Origin: Zafaria cholistanensis
GTDB lineage: Bacteria; Actinomycetota; Actinomycetes; Actinomycetales; Micrococcaceae
Direction: 5' to 3'
DNA length: 64,000 nt
NCBI RefSeq assembly: GCF_008580665.1
Contig: NZ_BKDJ01000008.1
Coordinates: 62,001-126,000 of the forward strand
The notes beneath the pieces are model-generated. The model was not told the DNA's origin. It was given only the letters and a program-made list of their open reading frames with translations, and made no database searches. Of this stretch, positions 36,715 through 55,814 are shown in pieces (the stretch's first letter is position 1; each line of letters begins with the position of its first letter). The translations under genes and the position numbers were made by a program.

Positions 36715-37740
36715 ATGAACACAGTCCGCACCTCCGTTCCCGTTCTGGACATGTCCGGGGCCCGCCTGGCCGACGGCACGTTCAACCCCGCGTTCATCGA
36801 CGCGCTGCGCGACGCCACCCACAACGTCGGCTTCTTCCAGATCACCGGCTACGGTGCCGCGCCGGGGCAGCCGGAGGCCCTGCTGGACACGATCGCGCGC
36901 TTCTTCAAGCTGCCGCTGGAGGAACGCCTCAAGCTGGACAACCGCAACTCCCCCCAGTTCCGCGGCTACACGCGCCTGGGCACCGAGATCACGCAGGGCC
37001 GCGCCGACTCCCGCGAGCAGATCGACTACGGCCCCGAGCGCGAGCCGCTGGAGAACGTCCCGGCGGACCGCCCCTACCTGAACCTCCAGGGCCCCAACCA
37101 GTGGCCCGAGTCCTTCCCGGAACTGGAGCGGGCCGCGATGGACTGGGCCGCGCTGATGTCGAGGATCGGCGCGGAACTGCTCTCCGCCATCGCCGTCTCG
37201 CTGGAACTGCCGGCCGACTACTTCGATGAGCCCTTCGCCGGCACCCCGGCCTGGATGGGCAAGCTGGTGCACTACGTGGGCGGCGGGCTGGTCCCGGAGG
37301 CCGGTGACCAGGGCGTGGGCTCCCACGCGGACTACGGGTTCGTCACCCTGCTGCTGCAGGACCAGGTCGGCGGCCTCGAGGTCAAGCCCTACGGCCAGGA
37401 CGAATGGATCGACGTGCCGCCGATTCCGGGCGCACTGGTGGTCAACCTCGGCGAGATGCTGGAGGTGGCGACCAACGGCTACCTGCAGGCAACCATCCAC
37501 CGCGTCACCGCGCCCCCGGCCGGCGTGGACCGCTACTCCGTGCCGTTCTTCTGGTCCCCGCGCCTGGACGCGACGATCGACGTCGTACCGCTGCCGGAGC
37601 ACCTCGCCGCTGACGCCCGCGGCGTCTCCGATGATCCGGACAACCCGATGCTCTCCTCCTATGGCGCCAACGTCCTGAAGGGCTGGCTGCGTGCCCACCC
37701 GCAGACCGCGGCGATCCACTACCCGAAGCTGGTGAAGTAA
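36715..37740 (+). CDS. isopenicillin N synthase family Fe(II)/2-oxoglutarate oxygenase
   Basis: 341-residue non-haem iron oxygenase. The N-terminal DIOX_N part has VGFFQITGYG; the catalytic 2OG-FeII domain has the iron ligands His and Asp in GVGSHADYGFVTLL and the distal His in ATIHRV. RYSVPFFWSP gives the RxS motif that binds 2-oxoglutarate. Relatives act on amino acids or purines such as xanthine; the substrate here is unknown. TACCTT just before the ATG suggests a leaderless start. A strong hairpin follows the stop. Confidence 0.86.
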   Translation: MNTVRTSVPVLDMSGARLADGTFNPAFIDALRDATHNVGFFQITGYGAAPGQPEALLDTIARFFKLPLEERLKLDNRNSPQFRGYTRLGTEITQGRADSREQIDYGPEREPLENVPADRPYLNLQGPNQWPESFPELERAAMDWAALMSRIGAELLSAIAVSLELPADYFDEPFAGTPAWMGKLVHYVGGGLVPEAGDQGVGSHADYGFVTLLLQDQVGGLEVKPYGQDEWIDVPPIPGALVVNLGEMLEVATNGYLQATIHRVTAPPAGVDRYSVPFFWSPRLDATIDVVPLPEHLAADARGVSDDPDNPMLSSYGANVLKGWLRAHPQTAAIHYPKLVK

Positions 37741-37989: not shown

Positions 37990-38817
37990 GTGGCAGGTGT
38001 GGACGAAGAAGCGATGCCGGAAGCCCTCGGGGAAGATTCGGCCGAAGGCGCCCAGCACGGCGGGGTCCAGTCCGTGGACCGGGCAATCACCGTGCTGGAG
38101 ATCCTCTCGCGCGAAGGCCATGCAGGAGTCAGCGAAGTTGCCTCCGAAATGGGCATCCACAAATCCACCGCCTCCCGGCTTCTGGGAGCGCTGGTGGCCC
38201 GGGAAATCGTCCAGCAGAACCGCGAACGCGGCAAGTACCAGCTCGGCTTCGGCATCCTGCGCCTGGCCGCGTCCATTCCCGGACGGCTGAGCCTGGTCCA
38301 GGAGACCGGACCGGTCCTGCAGGACTTGGCCGCGGAATACAGGGAAACCGCGAACCTGGCCGTGTTGCGGGCCAACTACGCGGTCAACGTGGACCAGGCC
38401 ATGGGACCGGCCACCCTGGCCACCCAGGACTGGGTGGGAAGCCTGACCCCGCTGCACGCCACCGCCAGCGGAAAGGTCCTCCTGGCCGCGCTGCCGGCCG
38501 AGGAACGCCAGCGGATCCTGGGGGAGACCGGGCTTCCGGCCTTCACCGCCCAGACCCTCACCTCGCGGCCGCGCCTGGAAAAGGAACTGCTCGAGGTCGC
38601 CCGGACCGGGCTGGCCTTCACCGAGGAGGAGTACGAGATCGGACTCAACGCCGCGGCCGTGCCCGTGCGGGACCACCTGGGCAAGGTCATCGCCAGCGTC
38701 AGCGTCTCCGGCCCGTCCTTCCGGTTCCGGCCCAAGGAACAGCCCGGCCTGCTCGAATCCCTCAAGCAGGCCGGGCTGGAAATCAGCCGCAGGATGGGCT
38801 ACCCCACCACCACCTGA
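37990..38817 (+). CDS. IclR family transcriptional regulator (C1 island)
   Basis: 275 residues. The winged HTH lies at about 28-85 (SVDRAITVLEIL, GIHKSTASRLLGALVARE), then the effector domain with LTPLHATASGKVLLAALP and VSVSGPSFRF. Start GTG 37990 follows AAAGGGAG. It is convergent with the formate dehydrogenase gene. Its last 129 bases, plus 26 beyond, are duplicated without gaps at 46233-46387 beside the Rieske oxygenase gene, which suggests it once lay next to the betaine genes and may regulate them. Upstream, GCGAAGA repeats twice (37910-37935), a possible operator. Confidence 0.88.
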   Translation: MAGVDEEAMPEALGEDSAEGAQHGGVQSVDRAITVLEILSREGHAGVSEVASEMGIHKSTASRLLGALVAREIVQQNRERGKYQLGFGILRLAASIPGRLSLVQETGPVLQDLAAEYRETANLAVLRANYAVNVDQAMGPATLATQDWVGSLTPLHATASGKVLLAALPAEERQRILGETGLPAFTAQTLTSRPRLEKELLEVARTGLAFTEEEYEIGLNAAAVPVRDHLGKVIASVSVSGPSFRFRPKEQPGLLESLKQAGLEISRRMGYPTTT

Positions 38818-38842: not shown

Positions 38843-41161
38843 CTAGCTGCCCTGCGGGGAGTCGTGCCGGATAAAGCGGACCGTCATCGCCTTGTACCCC
38901 GGGGTGTTGGACTCGCGGGCCACCAGCTCCCGGTGCACCAGAACGTTCGCCTCCGGGAAGTACGCGGCCGCGCACCCGCGGGCGGTCGGATAGGAGACCA
39001 GGCGGAACTTGTCCGCACGGCGCTCCGCACCGTTGAAGGTGCTGATCACGTCCACCAGCTCGCGGTCGGCGAAGCCCAGCTGTTGCAGGTCCTCCGGGTT
39101 GACCAGTATGACGCGGCGGCCATTGGAGATGCCGCGGTAGCGGTCGTCCAGGCCGTAGAAGGTCGTGTTGTACTGGTCGTGGCTGCGCATGGTCTGCAGG
39201 ATCAGATGCCCCTCCGGTGCCTGCAGGTACTCGAGGGGGCTGACCGAGAACCGCGCCTTGGCGATGTCCGTGGCGAACGACCGGGTGTCCCGCGGCGGGT
39301 TCGGCAGCACGAATCCGTTCTTCTGCCGGATCCGCTCATTGAAGTTCTCGAACCCCGGCAGCACGCGGGAGATGTGGTCGCGGATGACGTCGTAGTCCTC
39401 GGCCATCGCCCGCCAGTCCACGGGGTGGTCCTCCCCAAAGGTGGCCTGGGCCATCCGGGCGATGATGACCGGTTCGGACAAAAGGTGCTCGCTGACCGGT
39501 TCCAGGCGCCCCTGGGTGGAATGGACGACCGACATCGAGTCCTCGACGGAGAGGAACTGTGCCCCCGAGGGGTGCTTGTCGTCTTTGTCCGTGCGGCCCA
39601 GGGTGGGCAGGATCAGGGATGTCCTCCCGTGCACCACGTGCGAGCGGTTGGGCTTGGTGGAGACGTGCACGGTCAGTCCGGCACGCTTCATCCCGGCTTC
39701 GAGCACCTCAGTGTCTGAGCAGGCCAGGGCAAAGTTGCCGCCCATGGAGACAAAGACGTCCACCTCGTCCTTCTCGAACGCCTCCAGGGTCTCCGTGGCG
39801 TCCACCCCGTGCGCCCGCGGACTGGTGATGCCGAATTCGGCGTCAATGGCCTCCAGCAGCCATTCCGCCGGCTTCTCCCAGATGCCCATGGTGCGGTCGC
39901 CCTGGACGTTGGAGTGGCCCCGGACCGGGCAGGCACCGGCGCCGGGCTTGCCGAAGTTCCCCTGCAGCAGGAGCAGGTTGATGATTTCCCGCAGGGTGTT
40001 CACGGAATGCGGCTGCTGGGTCACGCCCAGCGCCCAGCAGAAGATGGTGGCCTTGGACTTCGCCAGCAGCCCGGCAACCCGGGTGATGTCCAGCCGGGAA
40101 AGCCCGGTGGCCTTCTCCGTCTCCTCCCAGTCGATGCTGCTGCGGGCCTGGCGGTACTCCTCGAATCCGCTGGTCTTGTCCTTGATGAACTCCGCGTCCA
40201 CCACGGACCCGGGACGCCGCTGCTCCTCCTCCAGCAGGAGGTGCCCCAGCGCCTGCATCAGGGCAAGGTCGCCTCCCACCTTGATCTGCAGGAATTCGTC
40301 GGCGATCTGGGCCCCGCCGCGCGCCAGGTTGCGGGGATCCTGCGGATCCTTGAACTTGAGCAGGCCGGCCTCGGGCAGCGGGTTCACTGCGACCACCTTG
40401 CCGCCGTTCTCCCTGCACTCGGCGAGGGCGGAAAGCATGCGCGGGTGGTTCGTCCCCGGGTTTTGCCCCACGACGAAGATCAGCTCCGCGTGGTGCATGT
40501 CTTCCAGCGAGACGGTGCCCTTCCCGATGCCGATGGTCGGGTTGAGCGCCGAGCCCGAGGACTCGTGGCACATGTTCGAGCAGTCAGGCAGGTTGTTGGT
40601 GCCGATCGAGCGGGCGAAGAGCTGGTACATGAACGCGGCCTCGTTGGCGGTGCGTCCCGACGTGTAGAAGATGCAGCGGTCCGGGGTGGTGGCACGGATG
40701 TGTTCACCAATGAGCTCGAAGGCATCGGTCCACGAGATTGGCGAGTAGTGCGTCTCCCCTTCGCGGATCACGACGGGCTCAGTGATCCGGCCCTGGTTAC
40801 CCAGCCAGTATTCCGTCTTCCCGGCGAGCTCCTCGATCGGGTGCGCGGCCCAAAACTCGGGGGTCACGGTGCGCAGGGTGTTCTCTTCCGCGATGGCCTT
40901 GGCGCCGTTCTCGCAGAACTCTGCCGGCTTCCGGGCCCCGGTGATCGACTCCGGCCACGCGCACCCGGGACAGTCGAATCCTCCACGCTGGTTCACCCGC
41001 AGCATCGAGCGAACGGTCCGGGCGACCCCTCCCTGCGAAAAGCCCCTGTCGAGCGAAACCATGACGGCCTTCACACCCGCAGCCGCGGTTTTGGGCCCAT
41101 GCACTTCAAGGTCGTTTTCGTCGATGTCTTTGACGGGAGCGTTCCGTCTGCCAAGTTCCAT
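38843..41161 (-). CDS. FdhF/YdeP family molybdopterin oxidoreductase, formate dehydrogenase-like
   Basis: 772 residues, alpha subunit type of the molybdopterin family. It begins with a Cys-containing segment FDCPGCAWPE, lacks the usual fourfold [4Fe-4S] motif of E. coli FdhF, and has the cofactor region SNMCHESSGSALNPTIG, where Cys may bind molybdenum. The C-terminal molydopterin dinucleotide-binding domain has RSHDQYNTTFYGLDDRYRG. In actinobacteria this type is annotated as formate dehydrogenase and lies with methylotrophic or betaine genes. It would oxidise formate from PurU to CO2. No FdhD or small subunits lie in the window; MoaA for its cofactor is 4 kb away. Confidence 0.85.
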   Translation of the reverse strand: MELGRRNAPVKDIDENDLEVHGPKTAAAGVKAVMVSLDRGFSQGGVARTVRSMLRVNQRGGFDCPGCAWPESITGARKPAEFCENGAKAIAEENTLRTVTPEFWAAHPIEELAGKTEYWLGNQGRITEPVVIREGETHYSPISWTDAFELIGEHIRATTPDRCIFYTSGRTANEAAFMYQLFARSIGTNNLPDCSNMCHESSGSALNPTIGIGKGTVSLEDMHHAELIFVVGQNPGTNHPRMLSALAECRENGGKVVAVNPLPEAGLLKFKDPQDPRNLARGGAQIADEFLQIKVGGDLALMQALGHLLLEEEQRRPGSVVDAEFIKDKTSGFEEYRQARSSIDWEETEKATGLSRLDITRVAGLLAKSKATIFCWALGVTQQPHSVNTLREIINLLLLQGNFGKPGAGACPVRGHSNVQGDRTMGIWEKPAEWLLEAIDAEFGITSPRAHGVDATETLEAFEKDEVDVFVSMGGNFALACSDTEVLEAGMKRAGLTVHVSTKPNRSHVVHGRTSLILPTLGRTDKDDKHPSGAQFLSVEDSMSVVHSTQGRLEPVSEHLLSEPVIIARMAQATFGEDHPVDWRAMAEDYDVIRDHISRVLPGFENFNERIRQKNGFVLPNPPRDTRSFATDIAKARFSVSPLEYLQAPEGHLILQTMRSHDQYNTTFYGLDDRYRGISNGRRVILVNPEDLQQLGFADRELVDVISTFNGAERRADKFRLVSYPTARGCAAAYFPEANVLVHRELVARESNTPGYKAMTVRFIRHDSPQGS

Positions 41162-41277: not shown

Positions 41278-42435
41278 CTAGCGAACCAGGGATTCCTTGG
41301 GGTCCGCCTGTCCGGCGAGGCTCCCGGTTCCGGACAGCGCCCCGGCCGATGCCACTTCGACGACGGAGCGGAGGACTTTGCCGTCGTGCATTTTGTGGAA
41401 GGCGTCTTCGATGTCGTTCAGGGTGATGCGTTCGGTGACGAAGGCGTCCAGGTCCAGGCGTCCGAGTTTGTACTGGTCCACGAGCATGGGGAAGTCACGG
41501 GAGGGCAGGCAGTCGCCGTACCAGGAGGATTTGAGGGATCCGCCGCGGCCGAAGATCTCCAGCAGGGGCAGTTCGAGTTTCATGTCGGGGGTGGGGACCC
41601 CGACGAGGACGACGCGTCCGGCCAGGTCGCGGGCGTGGAAGGCCTGGGTGTAGGTTTCGGGGCGTCCGACGGCGTCGATGACGACGTCGGCGCCGAATCC
41701 TCCGGTGAGGTTGCGGATGGCCTCTATGGGGTCGGTCTCGGAGGAGTTGATGCCGTGGGTGGCGCCGAGTTTTTGGGCGAGGGCGACCTTGGCGGGGTCG
41801 ATGTCCACGGCGATGATGGTGGTTGCTCCGGCGAGTTGGGCCCCGGCGATGGCGGCGATGCCGACGCCGCCGCAGCCGATGACGGCGACGGATTCGCCGC
41901 GGGTGACTTCGCCGGTGTTGATGGCCGCGCCGATGCCGGCCATGACTCCGCAGCCGAGCAGGCCTACGGCGGCGGGGTCGACGTCTTCGTCGACCTTGGT
42001 GCACTGGCCGGCGGCGACGAGGGTTTTTTCGGCGAATGCTCCGATGCCCAGGGCCGGGGAGAGGGGGGTGCCGTCTTCGAGGGTCATTTTTTGGGTGGCG
42101 TTGGCGGTGTTGAAGCAGTACTGGGGTTTGCCCTTGGCGCAGGAGCGGCAGGAGCCGCACACGGCGCGCCAGTTGAGGATGACGCGGTCTCCGATGGTGA
42201 TGCCGGTGACGTTTTCGCCGATTTCGGTCACGATGCCGGTGGCTTCGTGGCCGAGCAGGTAGGGGAAGTCGTCCCCGATGCCGCCGAGTTTGTAGTGCAG
42301 GTCGGTGTGGCAGACTCCGCAGGTGAGGATGTCGACCACGGCCTCTCCGGGTCCGGGATCGGGGATGATGATGGTTTCGATCTCGACGGGGGCGTTCTTG
42401 GCCTTGACGACGACGGCCTTCACCTTATGTGCCAT
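41278..42435 (-). CDS. S-(hydroxymethyl)mycothiol dehydrogenase
   Basis: 385-residue zinc alcohol dehydrogenase. Zn ligands: Cys in TCGVCHTD and His in LLGHEATG for the catalytic zinc; four cysteines in [16 protein letters not shown] for the structural one. NAD site: [11 protein letters not shown] and VDIDPAK. In actinobacteria it oxidises the adduct of formaldehyde with mycothiol to S-formylmycothiol (EC 1.1.1.306). Here it removes formaldehyde released when betaine is demethylated. Its long leader (240 bp) carries the promoter/CRP element shared with the ferredoxin gene. Confidence 0.9.
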
Positions 42436-43512: not shown

Positions 43513-44136
43513 ATGATCGGTTCGGAAACTATCAGCGACTACCTGAAACGCCTGGCCGCCCGGGAGCCGACACCCGGCGGGGGAGCCGCCGGGGCCCTGC
43601 ATGCGGCCCAAGGCGCAGCCCTGCTCGCCATGGCTTCCCGCTACACCACGGGAGAAAAGTACGCCGAACACGAGCACCGGGCCCGGCAGATCGCCTCCCG
43701 GGCGGAGGAGATCATCTCCGCCTCCCTGCAGACGGCGGACGACGACGAGTCAGCTTTTGGGGCGGTGATCGCGGCTTACGGGCGTCCCGCCGGTACGGAG
43801 GCCGAACGCACCGCACGCTCTGAAGCCATCCAGGAGGCAGTGCTTGAGGCCGGCGCGCCGCCACAGGCCCTCATCCTTCTGGCCACGGAAATCGTGGAAC
43901 TGAGCAACGACCTGGTCAATTTCAGCAATCCGAACGTCATCAGCGATGTCGCCGCGGCTGCCGAGGCTGCACGGGCAGCGATCGCGACGGCGCTGGTAAC
44001 GCTCCATATCAACATCAGCTCCCTCAAGGAGGCCGAGGCGCAGGAAGGCCTCCGGGCCGCGGCCGACCGCGCGGAGGACGCCCTCGAACTGGCCCAGGCC
44101 GTGACGCGGCGGGTACGGGAAAAGGTGGCGGCATGA
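43513..44136 (+). CDS. fchA: cyclodeaminase/methenyl-THF cyclohydrolase family protein
   Basis: 207 residues of the formimidoyl-THF cyclodeaminase family. The hallmark PTPGGGAAGA lies at about 20-29, followed by helical segments with ISDVAAAAEAARAA. Stand-alone members (FchA) catalyse the hydrolysis of 5,10-methenyl-THF to 10-formyl-THF. Four-base overlap (ATGA) with folD. Since that FolD lacks the Lys of its cyclohydrolase site, this protein probably supplies that step, making 10-formyl-THF for PurU. Confidence 0.88.
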   Translation: MIGSETISDYLKRLAAREPTPGGGAAGALHAAQGAALLAMASRYTTGEKYAEHEHRARQIASRAEEIISASLQTADDDESAFGAVIAAYGRPAGTEAERTARSEAIQEAVLEAGAPPQALILLATEIVELSNDLVNFSNPNVISDVAAAAEAARAAIATALVTLHINISSLKEAEAQEGLRAAADRAEDALELAQAVTRRVREKVAA

Positions 44137-45032
44137 AGGCGCTTGCCCTGGCCGGGCCGCCCGTGGCCCGGCAATTGCGCGAAACCACCGGCGCCAATGT
44201 GCGCGAACTCCATGGCAGGGGCATTACGCCGCGGCTCGCCGTCGTGCTGGCAACCGACAACGAAGCCACCCTCTGGTACGTCCGCTCCATTGCCCGGGCC
44301 GCCGAGAAGGCCGGGGTGGAGTGTGAGGTCCTCGACCTGGGGGCCACCGCGCAGGCCGGGGAGATCGCTGCGGTCCTGCGTGGGCTCAGCACCGATGACA
44401 ACACCCACGGGATCATCCTGCAGACGCCCCTGCCGCCGGGGGTTTCAGCCGACGGGCTCGCCGCCGAGATCAGCGTCGACAAGGACATCGACGGCGCCAA
44501 TCCGTTGAGCCTGGGCCGCCTGACCGCCGGACTGCCCGCCTTCGCGCCGGCGACCGCCCGCGCGGTGGTGGAGGTCCTCGACCACTACGGGTTCCCCCTG
44601 GCGGGCAAGTCCGTTGCCGTCGTGGGCCGGTCCACAGTGGTCGGCAAGCCCCTGCTGCAGCTGCTTCTCCACCGGGACGCCGCCGTGACCGTCTGCCATT
44701 CCCGCTCACAGCCGCTGGGCCGCTATACGCGCGACGCCGACGTCGTCGTCGCCGCGGCCGGCAGGGCGGGGCTGCTCACCGGCAGCGATATCCGCCCCGG
44801 GGCGGTGGTGGTCGATGTGGGAACCAACGTGCAGGAGGACGGACAGCTGGTGGGCGACGCCGACCCGGCGTCGGTGGGCGAGGTCGCCGCGGCATTGAGC
44901 CCCGTCCCTGGCGGCGTCGGCACCGTGACCACGGCACTCCTGGTCCTTCACACGACGGAGGCGGCCCTGGCCCGGGCCCGCCAGCCATCCCTTGCCGCCT
45001 CCTCCCCCGGCGGTGCCGGCGGCCATGCCTAG
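44133..45032 (+). CDS. folD: FolD family methylene-THF dehydrogenase, cyclohydrolase Lys replaced by Ile
   Basis: 299 residues. N-terminal catalytic domain with Tyr49 in LWYVRSI; the usual motif YVxxK has Lys four residues after Tyr, here it is Ile53. GIILQTPLPP holds the Gln and DKDIDGANP the Asp of the folate site. The NADP domain (about 150-280) has VVGRSTVVGKP and SPVPGGVGTVTTA near the end. Lys at this position is needed for cyclohydrolase activity in studied FolD/MTHFD1, whereas the dehydrogenase can remain without it. It therefore probably only oxidises 5,10-methylene-THF, with FchA doing the second step. ATGA overlap with fchA. Confidence 0.88.
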   Translation: MKALALAGPPVARQLRETTGANVRELHGRGITPRLAVVLATDNEATLWYVRSIARAAEKAGVECEVLDLGATAQAGEIAAVLRGLSTDDNTHGIILQTPLPPGVSADGLAAEISVDKDIDGANPLSLGRLTAGLPAFAPATARAVVEVLDHYGFPLAGKSVAVVGRSTVVGKPLLQLLLHRDAAVTVCHSRSQPLGRYTRDADVVVAAAGRAGLLTGSDIRPGAVVVDVGTNVQEDGQLVGDADPASVGEVAAALSPVPGGVGTVTTALLVLHTTEAALARARQPSLAASSPGGAGGHA

Positions 45033-45116: not shown

Positions 45117-46217
45117 GTGAGCATCGCGCTGGGCATGCCGCGGCTCCCCGACCGGAGCGGGCCGGCCGCGCCCCCGCCCGCTCCGGCCGGGGAGGCCCGG
45201 CTGCTGGACCGCTTCGGGCGCGTCGCGAGCGATCTGCGGATCTCCCTGATCGACAAGTGCAACCTCCGCTGCACCTATTGCATGCCCGCCGACGGGCTGG
45301 CCTGGCTGCCGCGCAACCGCCTGCTCACCCTTGAGGAGGTCCTGCGCCTGGTCCGGATCGGGGTCCGCGACCTGGGCGTGCGGGAAGTGCGCCTCACCGG
45401 CGGAGAACCCCTGGTCCGGGCGGACCTGGTGGAGATTGTCGCCGGACTGCGCGCCGAACACCCGCACCTGCCGGTCTCGATGACCACCAACGGCGTCGGC
45501 CTGGAGGCCAAGGCGCGGGCCCTGGCGGAGGCGGGCCTGACCCGGCTGAACGTCTCGCTGGACACCCTGCATGCGGGCACCTTCGAAAAGCTCACCCGCC
45601 GCGCGCATCTGAACCGGGTCCTGGCCGGCATCGAGGCCGCGGACGCGGCGGGGCTGCGCCCGCTGAAGATCAATGCCGTGCTGATGCGCGGCGTCAACGA
45701 GGACCAGGCCCCGGACCTGCTCGCCTGGGCGCTGGAGCGCGGGTACGAACTGCGCTTCATCGAACAGATGCCCCTGGACGCCGACCATGGGTGGCGCCGG
45801 GAGGACATGGTGACCGCAGCCGACACGCGCTCCCTGCTGCAGCGCACCCACCTGCTCACGCCGGACCCGCGCGCACGGGAAGGGGCCCCCGCCGAGCGTT
45901 TCCTGGTCTCCCGCCCCGCCGAGCCGGACCGGATCCTGGGCACCGTCGGGATCATTGCCTCCGTCACGGAACCCTTCTGCGCGGACTGCCGCCGCACCCG
46001 CATCACCGCCGAGGGGCGCGTCATGAGCTGCCTCTTCTCCCACGAGGAAACCGACCTGTCCGCGCTGCTGCGCTCGGGAGCCGCCGACGCCGAGGTGGCC
46101 CGGCGGTGGCGGGCGGCCATGTGGGTCAAGCCGCGCGCCCACGGCATGGACCATGCGGGCCTGGGCGCGGAGGACTTCGTCCAGCCAGACCGTTCCATGA
46201 GCGCCATCGGAGGCTAG
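45117..46217 (+). CDS. moaA: GTP 3',8-cyclase MoaA (molybdenum cofactor)
   Basis: 366-residue radical SAM enzyme for the first step of molybdopterin synthesis. The N-terminal cluster CNLRCTYC, the SAM motif LTGGEPLVR, and a C-terminal cluster FCADCRRTRITAEGRVMSC are all present, and the C-terminus ends in the required Gly-Gly (SAIGG). Start GTG 45117. It lies 84 bases after folD on the same strand and probably supports the molybdenum enzyme at 38843-41161. Other moa and moe genes are not in the window. Confidence 0.94.
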   Translation: MSIALGMPRLPDRSGPAAPPPAPAGEARLLDRFGRVASDLRISLIDKCNLRCTYCMPADGLAWLPRNRLLTLEEVLRLVRIGVRDLGVREVRLTGGEPLVRADLVEIVAGLRAEHPHLPVSMTTNGVGLEAKARALAEAGLTRLNVSLDTLHAGTFEKLTRRAHLNRVLAGIEAADAAGLRPLKINAVLMRGVNEDQAPDLLAWALERGYELRFIEQMPLDADHGWRREDMVTAADTRSLLQRTHLLTPDPRAREGAPAERFLVSRPAEPDRILGTVGIIASVTEPFCADCRRTRITAEGRVMSCLFSHEETDLSALLRSGAADAEVARRWRAAMWVKPRAHGMDHAGLGAEDFVQPDRSMSAIGG

Positions 46218-46232
46218 GGGACGGCCGGGCGC

Positions 46233-46387
46233 ATCGCCAGCGCCAGCGTCTCGGGCCCGCCCTTCCGGTTCCGGCCCAAGGAACAGCCCGGCCTGCCCAA
46301 ATTCCTCAAGCAGGCCGGGCTGGAAATCGCCCGGAGGAAGGGCTACCCCACCACCACCTGGGCCCGCTGCTCCAGTGGAGCCGTGGC
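46233..46387 (+). pseudogene. duplicated 3' end of the iclR regulator gene
   Basis: 155 bases that align without gaps to 38689-38843 (the last 129 bases of iclR plus 26 downstream), with about 16 differences by my count, roughly 90 percent identity. It reads ASVSGPPFRFRPKEQPG, then KQAGLEIARRKGYPTTT, but the stop TGA has become TGG. The other strand of bases 46343-46387 is the end of the Rieske oxygenase gene, so the downstream part of the functional iclR also copies that gene's end. Confidence 0.85.
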
Positions 46388-47545
46388 CGGGGCAAGGCCC
46401 AGCAGGTCCTCTCCGGAAGGCTGCACGTCGCCGACCCTGGAGCTCACCCAGTCGTGGAAGGCGCCGATGTGGTGCTCGCTGGGCACCAGCACGCCGCCCT
46501 TGGAGTAAACCTTGGAGGCCATTCCCGGCTGGCAGCGCTCGCAGGCATCGAAGTCCTGCATGTTCACGCGGTGGAACAGTTCCACCGAGGCGGTGACGTC
46601 CTTGCCGGACTCGACCACGCTGGGCAGGTAGAGCCAGTCGCACTCGACGATGGTGTGGTCGGCGGCCAGCGGGAACATCCGGTGGATGATCACGTGGTCG
46701 GGCACCAGGTTCACGAAAACGGTCGGCTTGATGGTGATCGCGTAGTAGCGCCGGTCCTGGTCCTCGCTCACGCCGGGAATCAGGTCCAGGCCCTCCGAGC
46801 CGTCCACCGTGAAGCCCTTGATGTCCTCGCCGAACTCCGCGCCGTGGCCCACGAAGTACTGCGCGGCCAGGCCGTCGGCGAACTCGGGCAGGACCTCGGT
46901 CAGTTCCGGGTGGATGGTGGCGCAGTGGTAGCACTCCATGAAGTTCTCGATGATGAGCTTCCAGTTCGCCTTGACGTCATACTTGATGCGCCGGCCGACC
47001 AACAGGTTGGCCACGCCATAGCCGTCGATGGCCTCCAGGTCGCCGAGCCGCTCCTCGATGGCCCCCATCACGTCTTCCTCGAAGGACGGCGGGTTCTCGG
47101 CCAGGCAGACCCACACGTAGCCCAGGTACTCGCGGATGTGGACCTTCGCCAGGCCGTACTCGTGCCGGTCGATATCCGGCATCTTGGTCAGGTTGGGCGC
47201 AGCGACGAGCTTGCCCTCGAAGTCGTAGGTCCAGGCGTGGTAGGGGCACTGGAAGGAACGCTCAACCTGTCCGGACTCCTCCATGCACAGCTTCACGCCG
47301 CGGTGCCGGCAGATGTTGTAGAACGCGCGGATCTCGCCCTTGCGGGTCCGGCTGATCAGGACGCTCTCGCGGCCGATCTGGACCGTCTTCCACGCACCGG
47401 CCTTGTCCAGGTCGGCGGTCCGGATGGCGCAGAACCACATCTGCTCGAAGATGCGTTCCTGTTCGGCGCGGAAGATTGCGGCGTCGGTGTAGGTGTGCCC
47501 GGGCAGGGTCGAGATGAGGCTGGGGGAGGTTACTTCAACGGCCAT
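46343..47545 (-). CDS. Rieske oxygenase alpha subunit, glycine betaine monooxygenase-like (GbcA type)
   Basis: 400 residues. The N-terminal Rieske [2Fe-2S] site is ICRHRGVKLC (Cys and His) and CPYHAW (Cys and His) near residues 80-105. The catalytic domain's mononuclear iron ligands lie in NFMECYHCATIHPEL. Relatives demethylate glycine betaine to dimethylglycine, releasing formaldehyde. The dimethylglycine oxidase, BCCT importer and C1 genes around it strongly support this; a carnitine or other quaternary amine is the alternative. The reductase gene is 41 bases upstream. The last 15 codons overlap the duplicated iclR tail on the other strand. Confidence 0.87.
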   Translation of the reverse strand: MAVEVTSPSLISTLPGHTYTDAAIFRAEQERIFEQMWFCAIRTADLDKAGAWKTVQIGRESVLISRTRKGEIRAFYNICRHRGVKLCMEESGQVERSFQCPYHAWTYDFEGKLVAAPNLTKMPDIDRHEYGLAKVHIREYLGYVWVCLAENPPSFEEDVMGAIEERLGDLEAIDGYGVANLLVGRRIKYDVKANWKLIIENFMECYHCATIHPELTEVLPEFADGLAAQYFVGHGAEFGEDIKGFTVDGSEGLDLIPGVSEDQDRRYYAITIKPTVFVNLVPDHVIIHRMFPLAADHTIVECDWLYLPSVVESGKDVTASVELFHRVNMQDFDACERCQPGMASKVYSKGGVLVPSEHHIGAFHDWVSSRVGDVQPSGEDLLGLAPATAPLEQRAQVVVG

Positions 47546-47586: not shown

Positions 47587-48777
47587 TCAGGCGGGGACGG
47601 AAGAAGTGGGGGCGGACGCGGCGGCCTGCGCGAGGGCGCGGCGCCACTTGACGAACAGCCGGGGCTGGTTCATACCCAGCACGGCCACGGGCTCCGAGGC
47701 CCGGTAATAGACGGCCAGGAGGTCGTGGGCCTGGGCGGAGCCGGCTTCGATCTCCACCCGGTCAGCTTCCCCGGCGTTGCCGGCGAACTGCAGTTTCACG
47801 CCATGCTGGTCGGACCAGAAGTAGTGCGGCTTGGGCTTCGCGGCGGACGGGGCAGCGCCCAGGAGCGCCTCCACCGCGATTTCCGCCTGCTCCGTGGCCG
47901 AGGTCCAGTGCTCCACGCGCCGGTGTGTTTCCGCGCGCTCGTCGAACCATGCGGCGCAGTCCCCGGCGGCGACGATGCCCGGCAGGTTTGTCCGGCCCGC
48001 CGCGTCGCACAGGACGCCGTTCTTGACGTCGAGGCCGGAGAAGGACAGCCATGCCGTGTTCGGCACGGCACCGATGCCCACCAGAACGAGGTCCGCGGCC
48101 AGCCGCTGCCCGTTGGTGAGGTTCAGGCCGGTGACCCTTCCACCGGCGCTCTCGACGCTGTCGATGGTGGTGTCCCGGAGCAGGGCCACGCCACGGCTTA
48201 CCTGCAGCCCCGCCACCACTTCGCCCATTTCCGCGCCGAGGGCGGCGCTGAACGGAACCGGTTCGGCGTTCACGAGGGTCACCTCCAACCCTAAGGACGA
48301 GGCGGTGGAGGCGACTTCGGCTCCGATGAAACCGGCCCCGATGATCACCAGCCGGCGGCCGGGAAGCAGTTCGGCCGCCAGCTGCCGGCTGTCGTCCAGG
48401 GTCCGCAGGGTGTGGACGTTGGTGAACCCCTCCAGGCTGGGAAGCCGGCGTGCGGAGGCGCCGGTGGCGATCACGATGCCGTCCGCGGCAATGATCGTCC
48501 CGTCCTCGAGCATGATGGCCTTGGCCTCGCCGTCCAGGCCGAGGGCCCGGTGCCCGAGCAGCCACTCGGCCTGGAGGTCCTCGTTTCCGGCCTCCAGTGC
48601 GAGGTCCCCGGCCGTCATCCTGCCCAGCAGGAAATCCTTGGACAGCGGAGGCCGGTCATACGGGCGCTCCGCCTCGTCCCCGACGATCACGAGCCTGCCC
48701 GCAAAGCCTTTGGCGCGCGCAGCGCGTGCTGCCGACAAGCCGGCCAAGGATGCCCCGACGATGGCTAGGGTTTCCAT
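47587..48777 (-). CDS. ferredoxin reductase, FAD/NAD(P)-dependent
   Basis: 396 residues, pyridine nucleotide-disulfide family, like rhodocoxin and putidaredoxin reductases. FAD motif VGASLAGLSAARAARAKG at the N-terminus, ERPYDRPPLSKDFLLG, NAD motif VIIGAGFIGAEVAS near 155, and VAAGDCAAWFDE near 290. It passes electrons from NAD(P)H to the Rieske ferredoxin encoded at 55464-55814, which feeds the oxygenase. Strong ribosome site GAGGAGGG before ATG 48777. It heads the reductase-oxygenase pair. Confidence 0.88.
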   Translation of the reverse strand: METLAIVGASLAGLSAARAARAKGFAGRLVIVGDEAERPYDRPPLSKDFLLGRMTAGDLALEAGNEDLQAEWLLGHRALGLDGEAKAIMLEDGTIIAADGIVIATGASARRLPSLEGFTNVHTLRTLDDSRQLAAELLPGRRLVIIGAGFIGAEVASTASSLGLEVTLVNAEPVPFSAALGAEMGEVVAGLQVSRGVALLRDTTIDSVESAGGRVTGLNLTNGQRLAADLVLVGIGAVPNTAWLSFSGLDVKNGVLCDAAGRTNLPGIVAAGDCAAWFDERAETHRRVEHWTSATEQAEIAVEALLGAAPSAAKPKPHYFWSDQHGVKLQFAGNAGEADRVEIEAGSAQAHDLLAVYYRASEPVAVLGMNQPRLFVKWRRALAQAAASAPTSSVPA

Positions 48778-49043: not shown

Positions 49044-49733
49044 ATGCTGGAGGATCGTTCACGGATCCCCGAATCGGACGGGAAGGCCAACATCTTGGGA
49101 GAAACCGGGCTTACCCGGGCGGAATTCGCGTACCGGGAGCTTCGCCAGCGCATCATCGACATGCGGCTGCCCCCGGGCGAGCCCCTGGACGAGGAGTCGC
49201 TCATGGCCAGCCTTGAGCTCGGCCGCACCCCGCTGCGGGAAGCGGTCAAGCGCCTTGAAACCGACCGCCTGCTCGTCGTGTACCCGCGCCGGGGCACCTT
49301 CGTCGCGGAGGTCAATATCCGGGACCTCGGGGAGATTTCCGACGCCCGGCGGGTCCTTGAGGCCTTCGCCGCGCGCAGGGCGGCCGAACGCGCTACCGGG
49401 GAGGATCGCGGCAAGCTGCGGTCCTGCCTGGAGGCCTTAAAGCAGGCGCCCGACGGCACCAACCAGACCTCGATCGACCTGGACGCGCAGATCCACCGCA
49501 CCATTTATGCCACCATGCGCAACAGCTATGTCGAAGCGACGCTGATCCAGTACTTTGCCCTGTCCCAGCGCATGTGGAACTTTGTGCTGGCGGGACTGGC
49601 GCCCATCTCGGGGAACGTCCAGGAGCACGTGGCCCTCCTGGAGGCAATCATCGACGGTGACCCCGACAAGGCGGCACGCCTGGCCGAGGAGCACGTCAGC
49701 CACTTCGAGCAGCTGGTCCAGCGCTCCCTGTAG
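49044..49733 (+). CDS. GntR family regulator, FCD (FadR-type) subfamily
   Basis: 229 residues. The winged HTH (AYRELRQRIIDMRLPPGEPL, LGRTPLREAVKRLE) is at about 25-90, and the FCD ligand domain at about 95-220 with DLDAQIHRTIYATMRN and a metal-site-like His in HVALLEAI. ATG 49044 and TTG 49095 (behind GGGAAGG) are both possible starts; the HTH begins shortly after either. Divergent from the betaine monooxygenase reductase and convergent with dimethylglycine oxidase, so it probably controls the island. Confidence 0.86.
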   Translation: MLEDRSRIPESDGKANILGETGLTRAEFAYRELRQRIIDMRLPPGEPLDEESLMASLELGRTPLREAVKRLETDRLLVVYPRRGTFVAEVNIRDLGEISDARRVLEAFAARRAAERATGEDRGKLRSCLEALKQAPDGTNQTSIDLDAQIHRTIYATMRNSYVEATLIQYFALSQRMWNFVLAGLAPISGNVQEHVALLEAIIDGDPDKAARLAEEHVSHFEQLVQRSL

Positions 49734-49789: not shown

Positions 49790-52321
<2,532 letters not shown>

Positions 52322-52342: not shown

Positions 52343-53248
52343 CTAGTGGAAGACGACGGTTCGGTGGCCGCTGAGCATGACGCGGTTCTCCGCGTGCCAG
52401 CGGACCGCTCGGGCGAGGGCCAGCGCCTCGGTATCCCTGCCTACGGTGGCCAGTTCCTCCGGGGTCATCCGGTGGTCCACCCGCACGACCTCCTGCTCGA
52501 TGATCGGGCCCTCGTCCAGGTCGGCGGTGACGTAGTGGGCTGTGGCCCCGACGTGCTTGACGCCGCGTGCGTGGGCCTGGTGGTACGGGCGCGCGCCCTT
52601 GAACCCGGGCAGGAAGGAGTGGTGGATGTTGATGGCGCGCCCGGAGAGCCGGTTGCAGAGGTCGTCGGAGAGCACCTGCATGTAGCGGGCGAGCACCACC
52701 AGGTCGGCCTCGAACTGCTCCACCACGTCCAGCAGCCGCTGCTCGGCCGCGGGCTTGGACGCCGCGTCGACGGGGATGTGGACGAAGGGGAGCCCGGCCG
52801 CCTCGGCCATCGGGCGCAGGTCCTCGTGGTTGGATACCACGGCGACCAGGTCGGCCGGCAGGCTTCCGGTCTGCCACCGGAAAATCAGGTCGTGGAGGCA
52901 GTGCCCGAACTTGGACACCATGATCAGCACCCGCGGCCTGGTGGCGTCGCTGAACGTGTAGGTCATGCCGAATTCCCGGGCGGTGTCCTCGAAGCGGCGC
53001 GTGAGGGTCTCGGCGTCGGCATCCTGTGCAGTGAAGGCCGTCCGCATGAACAGGGTGTTCTCCACCCGGTCATCGAACTGCTGGTGCTCGGTAATGTCCG
53101 CGCCCAGTTCCGCCAGGAAGCGGGACACCGCGTGGACGATGCCGGGCCGCTGGGGGCAGGACAGCGTCAGGACGCCGACGTGCGGGTTTGGGCTCGCGGC
53201 GCGGGCTTCGGTGGAGACCCGCGGTTCCAAAGTGGCTTGGGTGGTCAT
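52343..53248 (-). CDS. purU: formyltetrahydrofolate deformylase
   Basis: 301 residues. N-terminal ACT domain (VGVLTLSCPQRPGIVHAVSRFL) and C-terminal formyltransferase-like domain. Catalytic elements: INIHHSFLPGFKGARPYHQA with the active His, and the Asp in HYVTADLDEGP. It splits 10-formyl-THF to THF and formate, freeing folate when methyl groups are oxidised in bulk; formate then goes to the dehydrogenase at 38.8 kb. The N-terminus is about 20 residues longer than usual. It shares the operon with the dimethylglycine oxidase and has its own promoter upstream. Confidence 0.94.
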   Translation of the reverse strand: MTTQATLEPRVSTEARAASPNPHVGVLTLSCPQRPGIVHAVSRFLAELGADITEHQQFDDRVENTLFMRTAFTAQDADAETLTRRFEDTAREFGMTYTFSDATRPRVLIMVSKFGHCLHDLIFRWQTGSLPADLVAVVSNHEDLRPMAEAAGLPFVHIPVDAASKPAAEQRLLDVVEQFEADLVVLARYMQVLSDDLCNRLSGRAINIHHSFLPGFKGARPYHQAHARGVKHVGATAHYVTADLDEGPIIEQEVVRVDHRMTPEELATVGRDTEALALARAVRWHAENRVMLSGHRTVVFH

Positions 53249-53515: not shown

Positions 53516-55471
53516 CTAGCTGGTCGAGCGGCGTTCTGCTTCGCCCTCCCCTGCCGGGGACGGGCAGGGCCGCCGCCCGCAGGACTCGCCGCACTCATGC
53601 CGGGTCACCAGGTCGAACAGTCCGCCGTTGTGCTGGTCGACCCCGGACCTGATGGCCCGCTCGACGACGGAATCCGCCAGGCGCTTGCGCAGGGCCAGCG
53701 GGTCCCGGCGCAGGTCTTTGACCAGCGCAACGCACATCAGGAGCATGACCAGGACGAAGGGCAGGGCCGAAACAATCGTGACCCGCTGCAGCCCGGCCAA
53801 AGCATCGGCCGGCTTGTCCCCGCCCGCGAGGAGCATCACGGCCGCCACGGCCCCGGTGAGTGCGCCCCAGAAGATCACGACGCCGCGGCGCGGCTCCTCG
53901 GCGCCGTTGGAGCTGAGCGAACCCATGACAAGGGACGCCGAGTCCGCTCCGGTCACGAAGAAGATGGCGACGAGGACCATGGCCAGGACGGACACGGCCG
54001 CGGCGGCCACCTGCGCCAGCGGCAGCTGGTGCAGGAGGTCGAACAGCGCGCTGTCGAAGGAGATCGTCGGCACGCCGTCGACCATCGTGGCGATTCCGTC
54101 GGACGGGTCCTCTGAAGTGGTGCTGGCGGACTGGATGTGGATGGCCGCGCCCCCAAAGATGCCGAACCAGATCAGGCTGACGATGCTGGGCACCAACAGG
54201 ACGCCGGTCACGAACTGGCGGATCGTCCGCCCCCGGCTGATGCGGGCGATGAACATGCCGACGAACGGGGTCCAGGAGACCCACCAGGCCCAGTAGAAGA
54301 TGGTCCAGCCCGACATCCAGTCGCGCAGGGCTCCGTCCCCCACAGCCTCCGTCCGGGAAGACATTTCCGGCAGGTTCGCCGCGTAATCCCCCACCGCCGA
54401 CGGAATGAGGTTGAGGATGAACAGCGACGGGCCCGCCACGAAGACGATCAGGGCAAGCAGCACGGCCAGGACCATGTTGATGTTGGCCAGCCACTGAATG
54501 CCGCGCCGGATCCCGGAGACCGCGGAGGCGATGAAGCAGAAGGTCAGGATGGCGACGATCCCCACCAGGATCGGGGTGGCAAGCTGCCCCCCGATCCACC
54601 CGTTGGAAGCCAGGCCGCTGCCGATCTGCAGCGCCCCGAGCCCCAGGGAGGCTGCCGTTCCGAAGAGCGTGGCGAAGATGGCGAGCATGTTGATGAACCG
54701 CCCGGCTGCGCCATCCACCGACTTGGCCCCAAAAAGGGAGGTGAAGGCCGCGGAGATCAGCTGCCGCCGGCCCAGGCGGAAGGTTCCGTAGGCCATGGCC
54801 AGCCCAACCACCGCGTACATGGCCCACGGGTGGAGGGTCCAGTGGAACAGCGAGGTCGCCATGGCCGCCTGGATGGCCTCGGGGGTCTGGCCCTCCACGG
54901 TGCCGGGCGGGGGTGAGATGTAGTGGTACAGCGGCTCGGCGACGCCGTAGAACATCAGGCCGATGCCCATGCCGGCCGCGAACATCATGGAGATCCATGA
55001 GATGGTCCGGAACTCGGGCTTCTCACCGTCCTTGCCCAGCGGGATATTGCCGAAGCGCCCCAGCGCCAGCCACAGGACGTAGACAACAAACAGCGAAGCC
55101 AGCGCAATGAACAGCCAGCCTGTGTCCTTCATCACCCAGTCCAGGGCCGCCTGGGACACGGCGGCGAGACTCTCCCGGCCGGCGAAGCCCCACACGACGA
55201 AGGCCAGGGCCAGCGCGCCCGCCACGCCGAAGACGGTCTTGTCCAGCCGGGGGCGCTCGCGGAGAACGCGGTGCGCCACGGCCTGTTCCGTGGCGCTCTG
55301 GCGCAGCGTCTCCAGGATTTCGAGGTCCTCGTCTACGGGATGTTCCTCCACTGCGTGCCCCGGCTCCGGCCGCTCTTCAATAACCTCGGCAAGGGGGGCA
55401 TCACTGAGGGGGGCGCCCCCGGCAGCCACCAGAACCTCTTCCGTCCCCGGGCCCTGCGTTTCCTTATACAT
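53516..55471 (-). CDS. BCCT family transporter, glycine betaine/carnitine/choline
   Basis: 651 residues, twelve membrane helices. The family signature is GMGIGLMFYGVAEPLYHY near residue 190 and WTIFYWAWWVSWTPFVGMFIARISRGRT near 400, with the Trp-rich substrate box. The N-terminal cytoplasmic part is about 85 residues long, rich in Glu/Pro, and the C-terminal tail ends CGESCGRRPC; long tails sense osmolarity in BetP. It imports betaine for catabolism. Start ATG 55471 (GTG 55477 possible); it overlaps the ferredoxin stop by 8-14 bp. Confidence 0.92.
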   Translation of the reverse strand: MYKETQGPGTEEVLVAAGGAPLSDAPLAEVIEERPEPGHAVEEHPVDEDLEILETLRQSATEQAVAHRVLRERPRLDKTVFGVAGALALAFVVWGFAGRESLAAVSQAALDWVMKDTGWLFIALASLFVVYVLWLALGRFGNIPLGKDGEKPEFRTISWISMMFAAGMGIGLMFYGVAEPLYHYISPPPGTVEGQTPEAIQAAMATSLFHWTLHPWAMYAVVGLAMAYGTFRLGRRQLISAAFTSLFGAKSVDGAAGRFINMLAIFATLFGTAASLGLGALQIGSGLASNGWIGGQLATPILVGIVAILTFCFIASAVSGIRRGIQWLANINMVLAVLLALIVFVAGPSLFILNLIPSAVGDYAANLPEMSSRTEAVGDGALRDWMSGWTIFYWAWWVSWTPFVGMFIARISRGRTIRQFVTGVLLVPSIVSLIWFGIFGGAAIHIQSASTTSEDPSDGIATMVDGVPTISFDSALFDLLHQLPLAQVAAAAVSVLAMVLVAIFFVTGADSASLVMGSLSSNGAEEPRRGVVIFWGALTGAVAAVMLLAGGDKPADALAGLQRVTIVSALPFVLVMLLMCVALVKDLRRDPLALRKRLADSVVERAIRSGVDQHNGGLFDLVTRHECGESCGRRPCPSPAGEGEAERRSTS

Positions 55472-55814
55472 GGCCACCGACCGTCAGTCCAGGCGGCAGG
55501 TTCGGGGCTTCCTGCGACTCGATGACCATGATGTCCCCGTCAATCACGGCGACCTCGTGGACACGGACCGGCAGCTTGGCCGGGGGCGAGTCCACCGCTC
55601 CGGTGCGCAGATCGAATTTAGAGGCGTGGAGCGGGCATTCGACCTCGCACCCCTCGACCCATCCATCCGCGAGGGAGGCGTCCTGGTGTGTACAGGTGTC
55701 GTCGATAGCGAAAAGTTCACCTTCTTCGGTGTGGAACACGGCGATGGGTGGGGAGGTATCGAGACGGATCGCGTCTCCCCGCGCTAGGTCGTTGAGTGGG
55801 CATGCCCTGTGCAT
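55464..55814 (-). CDS. Rieske-type [2Fe-2S] ferredoxin
   Basis: 116 residues, non-haem ferredoxin of the kind used by Rieske oxygenases. Cluster ligands: CTHQDASLADG (Cys, His) and CPLHASKFD (Cys, His). It hands electrons from the reductase at 47587-48777 to the oxygenase at 46343-47545. The two lie more than 7 kb away but share the island. The start ATG 55814 follows AAAGGGG; the frame stays open upstream as a shadow. It begins the operon with the BCCT gene, whose start overlaps its stop. Confidence 0.9.
   Translation of the reverse strand: MHRACPLNDLARGDAIRLDTSPPIAVFHTEEGELFAIDDTCTHQDASLADGWVEGCEVECPLHASKFDLRTGAVDSPPAKLPVRVHEVAVIDGDIMVIESQEAPNLPPGLTVGGHV

Follow-up and report, generated by a model that had tools for sequence, protein, structure and literature searches.

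The window, i.e. the whole stretch of 64,000 nucleotides analysed here, carries the genes fchA and folD2 within a neighbourhood that encodes a predicted betaine/dimethylglycine one-carbon (C1) route. Its features are listed below, THF standing for tetrahydrofolate.

38843–41161, minus strand: FdhF/YdeP-type molybdopterin oxidoreductase, presumed formate dehydrogenase (TIGR01701, over cut-off)
41278–42435, minus strand: S-(hydroxymethyl)mycothiol dehydrogenase, formaldehyde oxidation (TIGR03451, 656 bits, over cut-off)
43513–44136, plus strand: fchA, predicted methenyl-THF cyclohydrolase of the FTCD_C family (PF04961, E 7.7e-47)
44133–44136, plus strand: ATGA, in which the stop of fchA and the start of folD2 overlap, an overlap common to 28 of 30 orthologous pairs
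44133–45032, plus strand: folD2, predicted methylene-THF dehydrogenase of the FolD family, predicted to lack cyclohydrolase activity (PF00763 and PF02882; AlphaFold model)
44277–44291, plus strand: codons of Y49-V-R-S-I53, with Ile53 (ATT, 44289–44291) at the place of the cyclohydrolase Lys (K54 in Escherichia coli, K56 in human)
44421–44426, plus strand: codons of Gln97, which is kept, and of Thr98, which is clade-specific, most ordinary FolDs having Leu (alignments)
44490–44492, plus strand: codon of the folate-site Asp120, which is kept (alignments)
45117–46217, plus strand: moaA, molybdenum cofactor synthesis, the next gene downstream of folD2 (TIGR02666, 356.8 bits, over cut-off)
46343–47545, minus strand: GbcA-like Rieske oxygenase, presumed glycine betaine monooxygenase (PF00848/PF00355; nearest NCBIfam model GbcA, 224 bits against a cut-off of 670)
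47587–48777, minus strand: ferredoxin-reductase-type flavoprotein, presumed partner of the oxygenase (PF07992/PF14759)
49044–49733, plus strand: GntR/FCD regulator
49790–52282, minus strand: dimethylglycine oxidase, passing methyl carbon to THF (E 0 to the N,N-dimethylglycine oxidase 1pj5 over nearly the full length)
52343–53248, minus strand: purU, formyl-THF deformylase (TIGR00655, 320.5 bits, over cut-off)
53516–55477, minus strand: BCCT betaine/choline/carnitine transporter (PF02028, E 3.6e-174)

A 2OG-Fe(II) oxygenase (36715–37740, plus strand) and an IclR regulator (37990–38817, plus strand) flank this C1 cluster. The initial annotation had placed fchA directly upstream of folD2 with a 4-bp overlap, which is the arrangement found.

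The folD2 product has 299 amino acids and matches both FolD Pfam domains, PF00763 with 87.6 bits (E 9e-25, curated cut-off 32.8) and PF02882 with 178.4 bits (E 8e-53, curated cut-off 27). The Lys of the YVxxK motif had been read as replaced by Ile, with structural alignment named as the check. A Lys stands opposite Ile53, with no gap nearby, in all five listed PDB alignments (3p2o, 6v6y, 6ape, 4b4u and 3l07), which confirms the column. Judged by the Lys of YxxxK, FolD2 does not qualify as a bifunctional FolD, having Ile53 instead. The folate-site residues Gln97 and Asp120, described earlier as retained, are indeed present in FolD2 and invariant in our alignment A1. Conservation was further assessed in a set chosen by identity only (threshold 48% to the window FolD2, duplicates counted once), which gave 96 rows; this set replaced a table of 113 rows that had itself been selected by residues 53 and 97. 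Tyr49, Gln97, Asp120 and Arg166 are kept in all 96 rows and Ser190 in 93, while the Lys column holds either Ile (86 rows) or Leu (10 rows). Arg166 and Ser190 have what we take to be an NADP-like appearance. The codon at 44424–44426 marks a second clade-specific change in the active site, overlooked in the initial annotation: Thr98 replaces Leu beside Gln97 in 94 of the 96 rows, whereas Leu occupies position 98 in 124 of 140 Lys-bearing FolD rows. By alignment this position corresponds to human Leu101, which is among the key residues of the human enzyme given below.

The AlphaFold model of FolD2 has a mean pLDDT of 92.5 and places residue 53 inside helix 44–59. It superposes on solved FolD/MTHFD chains over about 270–285 residues, with Z between 34.5 and 39.5 across the first 38 entries (best 39.5 over 282 residues); the FolD structure 5nhs is an outlier with a Z of only 23.5. 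Judged from sequence and model, the dehydrogenase parts of FolD2 look intact. All 25 NCBIfam FolD models listed, of 30 matched, scored below their cut-offs (best 252.3 of 421 bits), which proves little as these models are narrow; all 25 carry the word "bifunctional" in their names. The genome of the window also contains the second, intact folD for which a search had been suggested (G000:C11:31867-32748), and its motif YVGGK keeps the Lys.

The accessible text of three papers bears on what the Lys does. The K54N variant of E. coli FolD had no detectable cyclohydrolase activity and retained about 19% of the dehydrogenase activity, and hydrolysis of methenyl-THF is stated to be spontaneous as well (PMC5688156). 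Tyr52, Lys56, Gln100, Leu101, Asp125, Gly273 and Gly276 are the key residues given for the human enzyme, in which Lys56 cooperates with Gln100 during the dehydrogenase reaction and possibly passes on a proton during the cyclohydrolase reaction (PMC3368264). In a computational study of MTHFD2 the Lys serves mostly for binding during the dehydrogenase step, and its part in the cyclohydrolase step is left open, the base still being sought and a proton relay hypothesised (PMC9173628). Taken together, these studies predict that a FolD without the Lys would lose the cyclohydrolase activity and have a dehydrogenase that is weakened but not necessarily absent. The statement in the initial annotation that the dehydrogenase step does not need the Lys was too strong, given the reduced activity of K54N.

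The replacement is fixed in a clade. A FolD2 orthologue (52–100% identical to the window FolD) is encoded by 30 of the 197 genomes examined from the family of the window, and in none of these 30 is it the sole FolD match. None of the 30 orthologues has the Lys (Ile in 25, Leu in five), and fchA lies directly upstream in all of them, overlapping by 4 bp in 28 and separated by gaps of 5 and 59 bp, depending on the start chosen, in the other two. A sequencing error or a private mutation at Ile53 is ruled out, as the change is common to the orthologues. FchA matches (E up to 1e-8) were found in 30/30 FolD2 genomes against 52/167 others, and dimethylglycine oxidase matches (E up to 1e-180) in 30/30 against 64/167, the Fisher tests applied here and to the Bacillota below counting related genomes as independent. 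Comparison of genomes strongly supports the split of the two steps between FolD and FchA that the initial annotation proposed.

FchA does not in turn imply FolD2, as the 52 FchA-positive genomes without FolD2 demonstrate, although many of their matches are weak (27–36% identity). No folD was found near fchA in any of the 20 fchA loci read away from folD2 (L142–L161), 15 of which are in genomes without FolD2 and five of which are second copies (in G160, G162, G037, G084 and G151). Since these loci lack folD and so many genomes carry FchA without FolD2, FchA has other uses. By eye, the neighbours of fchA in L142 resemble malic enzyme and a citrate-lyase-like protein.

Four genomes of the family served as controls (G059, G147, G081 and G132). 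In all four a second folD lies beside a dimethylglycine oxidase gene and keeps the Lys (YVAGK), and fchA is absent within the stretch read around it; an FchA match occurs elsewhere in the genome in three of them (G059, G081 and G132). The Lys is likewise kept in the purU–folD pairs of G007 and G177. A separate observation concerns three genomes of genus g16 (G015, G044 and G068, 99–100% complete), which yielded no ordinary FolD match (none, 6e-4 and 8e-5) despite the presence of a dimethylglycine oxidase match.

We consider it very probable that FolD2 acts as a dehydrogenase only and FchA as the cyclohydrolase, together forming the middle part of an oxidative C1 route, while a bifunctional FolD serves biosynthesis. 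This is the best reading because the E. coli K54N variant has no detectable cyclohydrolase. Dimethylglycine oxidase would load methylene-THF, and FolD2 would convert 5,10-methylene-THF to 5,10-methenyl-THF with NAD(P)+. It would be unable to hydrolyse methenyl-THF usefully, because the Lys for that step is Ile, and the hydrolysis to 10-formyl-THF would fall to FchA. PurU would then free formate from formyl-THF, and the molybdenum enzyme, its cofactor helped by MoaA, would oxidise the formate to CO2. Biosynthetic C1 traffic would be left to the second, Lys-bearing FolD encoded elsewhere in the genome. The activities, the direction and the cofactor of this route are what we infer from the genes and residues described above.

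Named genomes were also scanned with alignment A1, in which 14 of the 15 rows are Lys-less FolDs, and the best 80 of 590 loci by likeness were examined. They come from Kocuria, Arthrobacter and relatives, Nonomuraea, Streptomyces, Amycolatopsis, Geodermatophilus, Clostridia, Nitrospirae and others. The Lys column holds Ile in 65, Leu in four and Ala in 11 of these best 80 loci. Because likeness was the basis of selection, this absence of Lys carries no independent weight, and the set informs on FchA only. An FchA match is present within the locus in 76 of the 80, and in the remaining four (L089, L133, L137 and L139) FchA is found elsewhere in the genome. In G245 and G430, members of a different family within the class, as well as in Amycolatopsis orientalis (L120/G600), the only FolD found is Lys-less, and all three genomes have FchA.

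The initial annotation had suggested a high C1 flux from betaine as the reason for the pair. This fits the locus of the window, and 26 of the 30 family genomes have a dimethylglycine oxidase match no more than 10 kb from folD2, but the explanation is not general. None of the C1 genes of the window was found in 9/9 Nonomuraea, 3/3 Amycolatopsis and 3/4 Streptomyces loci carrying the pair. A Pfam scan of ten neighbours in Nonomuraea, Actinopolymorpha, Amycolatopsis, Streptomyces and Actinacidiphila, with ORFs called by codon bias and some of them maybe wrong, revealed no shared C1 theme.

The same loci bear on a rival possibility: like its counterparts in acetogens, the pair could run chiefly in the reductive or biosynthetic direction, from formyl-THF to methylene-THF, and its location in a betaine locus would then be incidental. 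Related pairs of Lys-less FolD and FchA are found in Clostridia, in which both proteins take part in acetogenesis according to the accessible parts of two papers (PMC3584212, PMC10103890), and a dimethylglycine oxidase match is present in only 29 of the best 80 of 590 loci. We nevertheless regard this as unlikely, because every one of the family genomes with the pair has such a match, usually close by, and because purU lies near the pair in the window; PurU is irreversible and its prevalence is taken to support a dissimilatory pathway in the accessible text of PMC5023230.

FolD2 might also still be bifunctional, with Thr98, Gln97 or a bound water replacing the Lys and FchA merely adding capacity. 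The retained Gln97 with the clade-specific Thr beside it would be in keeping with this, as would the continuing search for the base in MTHFD2. We think it improbable in view of the K54N result, and because FchA is present in every examined genome that yielded only Lys-less FolD, where a working cyclohydrolase would not require it.

FchA itself matches the FTCD_C domain with 159.8 bits (cut-off 24.5). Its sole NCBIfam match is the FchA equivalog, at 133.8 of 275 bits and below the curated cut-off, which indicates relatedness without certification. The best PDB relative is 7vg4 (E 6.6e-29), named methenyl-THF cyclohydrolase and presumably from Methylorubrum/Methylobacterium, whereas FTCD and the formimino-THF cyclodeaminase 1o5h are weaker matches (E 2.6e-14 and 1e-12). 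That the neighbour of FolD2 is a formimino-THF cyclodeaminase, and the pair hence no split FolD, is suggested by the name of the Pfam family and by the score under the NCBIfam cut-off, but is most improbable and not favoured, because the formiminotransferase domain FTCD_N was found in none of the 16 genomes searched, that of the window included, and the cyclohydrolase structure is the closer one.

The origin of the Lys-less FolDs was examined in a tree of 137 of 310 rows (rows at least 72% alike or short were dropped), made by a quick method under LG+G4 with the trait columns blanked. In it, the 32 rows of actinobacterial FolDs with Ile or Leu group together as a clade (SH-aLRT 99). A larger group takes in 68 of the 74 altered FolD rows but none that is intact; its support is SH-aLRT 88, not starred. 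The tree requires seven changes between Lys and non-Lys and four between intact and not intact. This suggests, without proving, an old FchA-partnered FolD lineage rather than many fresh losses.

The association with FchA was also examined in 119 genomes of the Bacillota, the phylum of the clostridial locus L122. FolD was found in 115 of them and FchA in 70, the FchA count being by Pfam family with cyclodeaminases included. A total of 132 FolD ORFs was read at 126 loci in 114 genomes; G595 (its FolD having been read as L122), a broken 38-residue match in G606 and the four FolD-less genomes were left out of this reading, and five short FchA pieces were left out of the locus table, their genomes being already counted. 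FchA is present in 24/24 genomes without a Lys-bearing FolD against 44/90 with one. When both Lys and Gln were demanded, a criterion fixed after the data had been seen, FchA is present in 47/47 genomes without such a FolD against 21/67 with one.

Lys-bearing FolDs in which the Gln is Glu occur at 23 Bacillota loci, all in genomes with FchA, and 16 of these genes adjoin fchA, so an adjacent fchA does not always mean that the Lys is lost. Such FolDs possibly represent another way of losing the cyclohydrolase. The 16 loci, with folD first, are L260, L266, L267, L271, L272, L275, L277, L278, L280, L281, L282, L286, L287, L290, L293 and L306. Bacillota FolDs with Ala for the Lys number 16, and the Gln is also lost (to Phe, Met or Leu) in all 15 that are readable. 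Lys-less loci in genomes free of FchA are one of 26 with Ala, Ile, Leu or Met in the Lys column (G619) and three of ten with Gln there (G662, G665 and G704); a Lys-bearing FolD is present as well in all four genomes. At L292, L299, L300, L313 and L316, a short stretch holds two folD copies that differ in the Lys column, the first type having Lys and the other Gln (YTNAQ-like motifs).

A Bacillota tree was made from 95 of the 114 genomes, leaving out those with more than one FolD and fragments of fewer than 200 residues, again with the two columns blanked. The state of the site changes about three times on it, and the independent-pair test found two to three pairs, with significance out of reach. 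The Bacillota association is clean, yet rests on few events because of this small number of changes.

We weigh evenly for and against the broader proposal that a single old FchA-partnered FolD lineage extends through Actinomycetota, Bacillota and Nitrospirota, its dehydrogenase kept and its cyclohydrolase site dismantled in various ways. The routes would be Lys to Ile or Leu, Lys to Ala together with Gln to Phe, Met or Leu, and Gln to Glu with the Lys kept. Its support comes from the tree group that unites most altered FolDs and from the 47/47 Bacillota genomes with FchA. Should the proposal be true, the dependence of a cell on FchA could be predicted from two residues, and the annotation "bifunctional FolD" would be wrong in many cases. 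The finding at the locus is real and its interpretation appears well supported, and a broader pattern stands behind it.

FolD holds a central place among folate enzymes and has attracted study as a target for drugs. A check of two residues, distinguishing dehydrogenase-only from bifunctional FolDs and going with FchA, would correct models of actinobacterial and clostridial pathways. Furthermore, the dimethylglycine loci offer a natural experiment on the splitting of a two-step enzyme, some having a Lys-bearing FolD and no fchA nearby, others a Lys-less FolD with fchA. A Lys-less FolD may also predict natural insensitivity to carolacton, because carolacton is no longer bound by E. coli K54N according to the accessible text of PMC5688156.

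With the bifunctional FolDs of E. coli and of human MTHFD1 DC, FolD2 has in common the fold, Tyr49, Gln97, Asp120 and the PGGVG loop, and its model superposes on 1b0a (E. coli) with Z 35.9 and on 1a4i (human) with Z 38.1. It differs from them in the replacement of Lys by Ile and of Leu98 by Thr, and in the overlap of its gene with fchA. The NAD-dependent methylene-THF dehydrogenase of Saccharomyces (1edz) has the same fold and is distant (Z 30.4, 22% identity); it is described as monofunctional and without the Lys, the Gln being lost as well. In Methylorubrum/Methylobacterium, MtdA and Fch carry out the dehydrogenase and cyclohydrolase steps as two proteins, as FolD2 and FchA are predicted to do, and 7vg4 is the best PDB match of FchA; MtdA is, however, not regarded as a FolD.

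Clostridium perfringens has a separate FolD and FchA (Aluri et al. 2016, as cited in the accessible text of PMC7219735), and so resembles the genome of the window in having both in one organism. The clostridial and Nitrospirae relatives read in this analysis are Lys-less as well, with the Ala described above, and differ from the window clade in that most combine Ala with loss of the Gln (Phe, Met or Leu), whereas the window clade has Ile or Leu and keeps the Gln. Unlike those relatives, the window FolD2 shares its genome with a Lys-bearing FolD. Separate FchA and FolD proteins are also described in acetogens (PMC3584212, PMC10103890), where the accessible text of PMC10103890 still terms FolD bifunctional.

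A further precedent is a FolD2-Mch-PurU cluster described in 2015 in Arthrobacter sp. 31Y, comprising a second FolD, a non-homologous cyclohydrolase, PurU, a formaldehyde dehydrogenase, an aminomethyltransferase and a molybdenum oxidoreductase (PMC5023230). It is probably the same type of locus as that of the window, and the accessible part of that account mentions neither the active-site Lys nor a dehydrogenase-only function. No description of Lys loss in FolD, or of a tie between it and FchA, was found in the literature searched, subscription papers being mostly outside its coverage. Relative to the literature searched, the division of labour between FolD and FchA is already known, and the loss of the Lys with its link to FchA is the new part.
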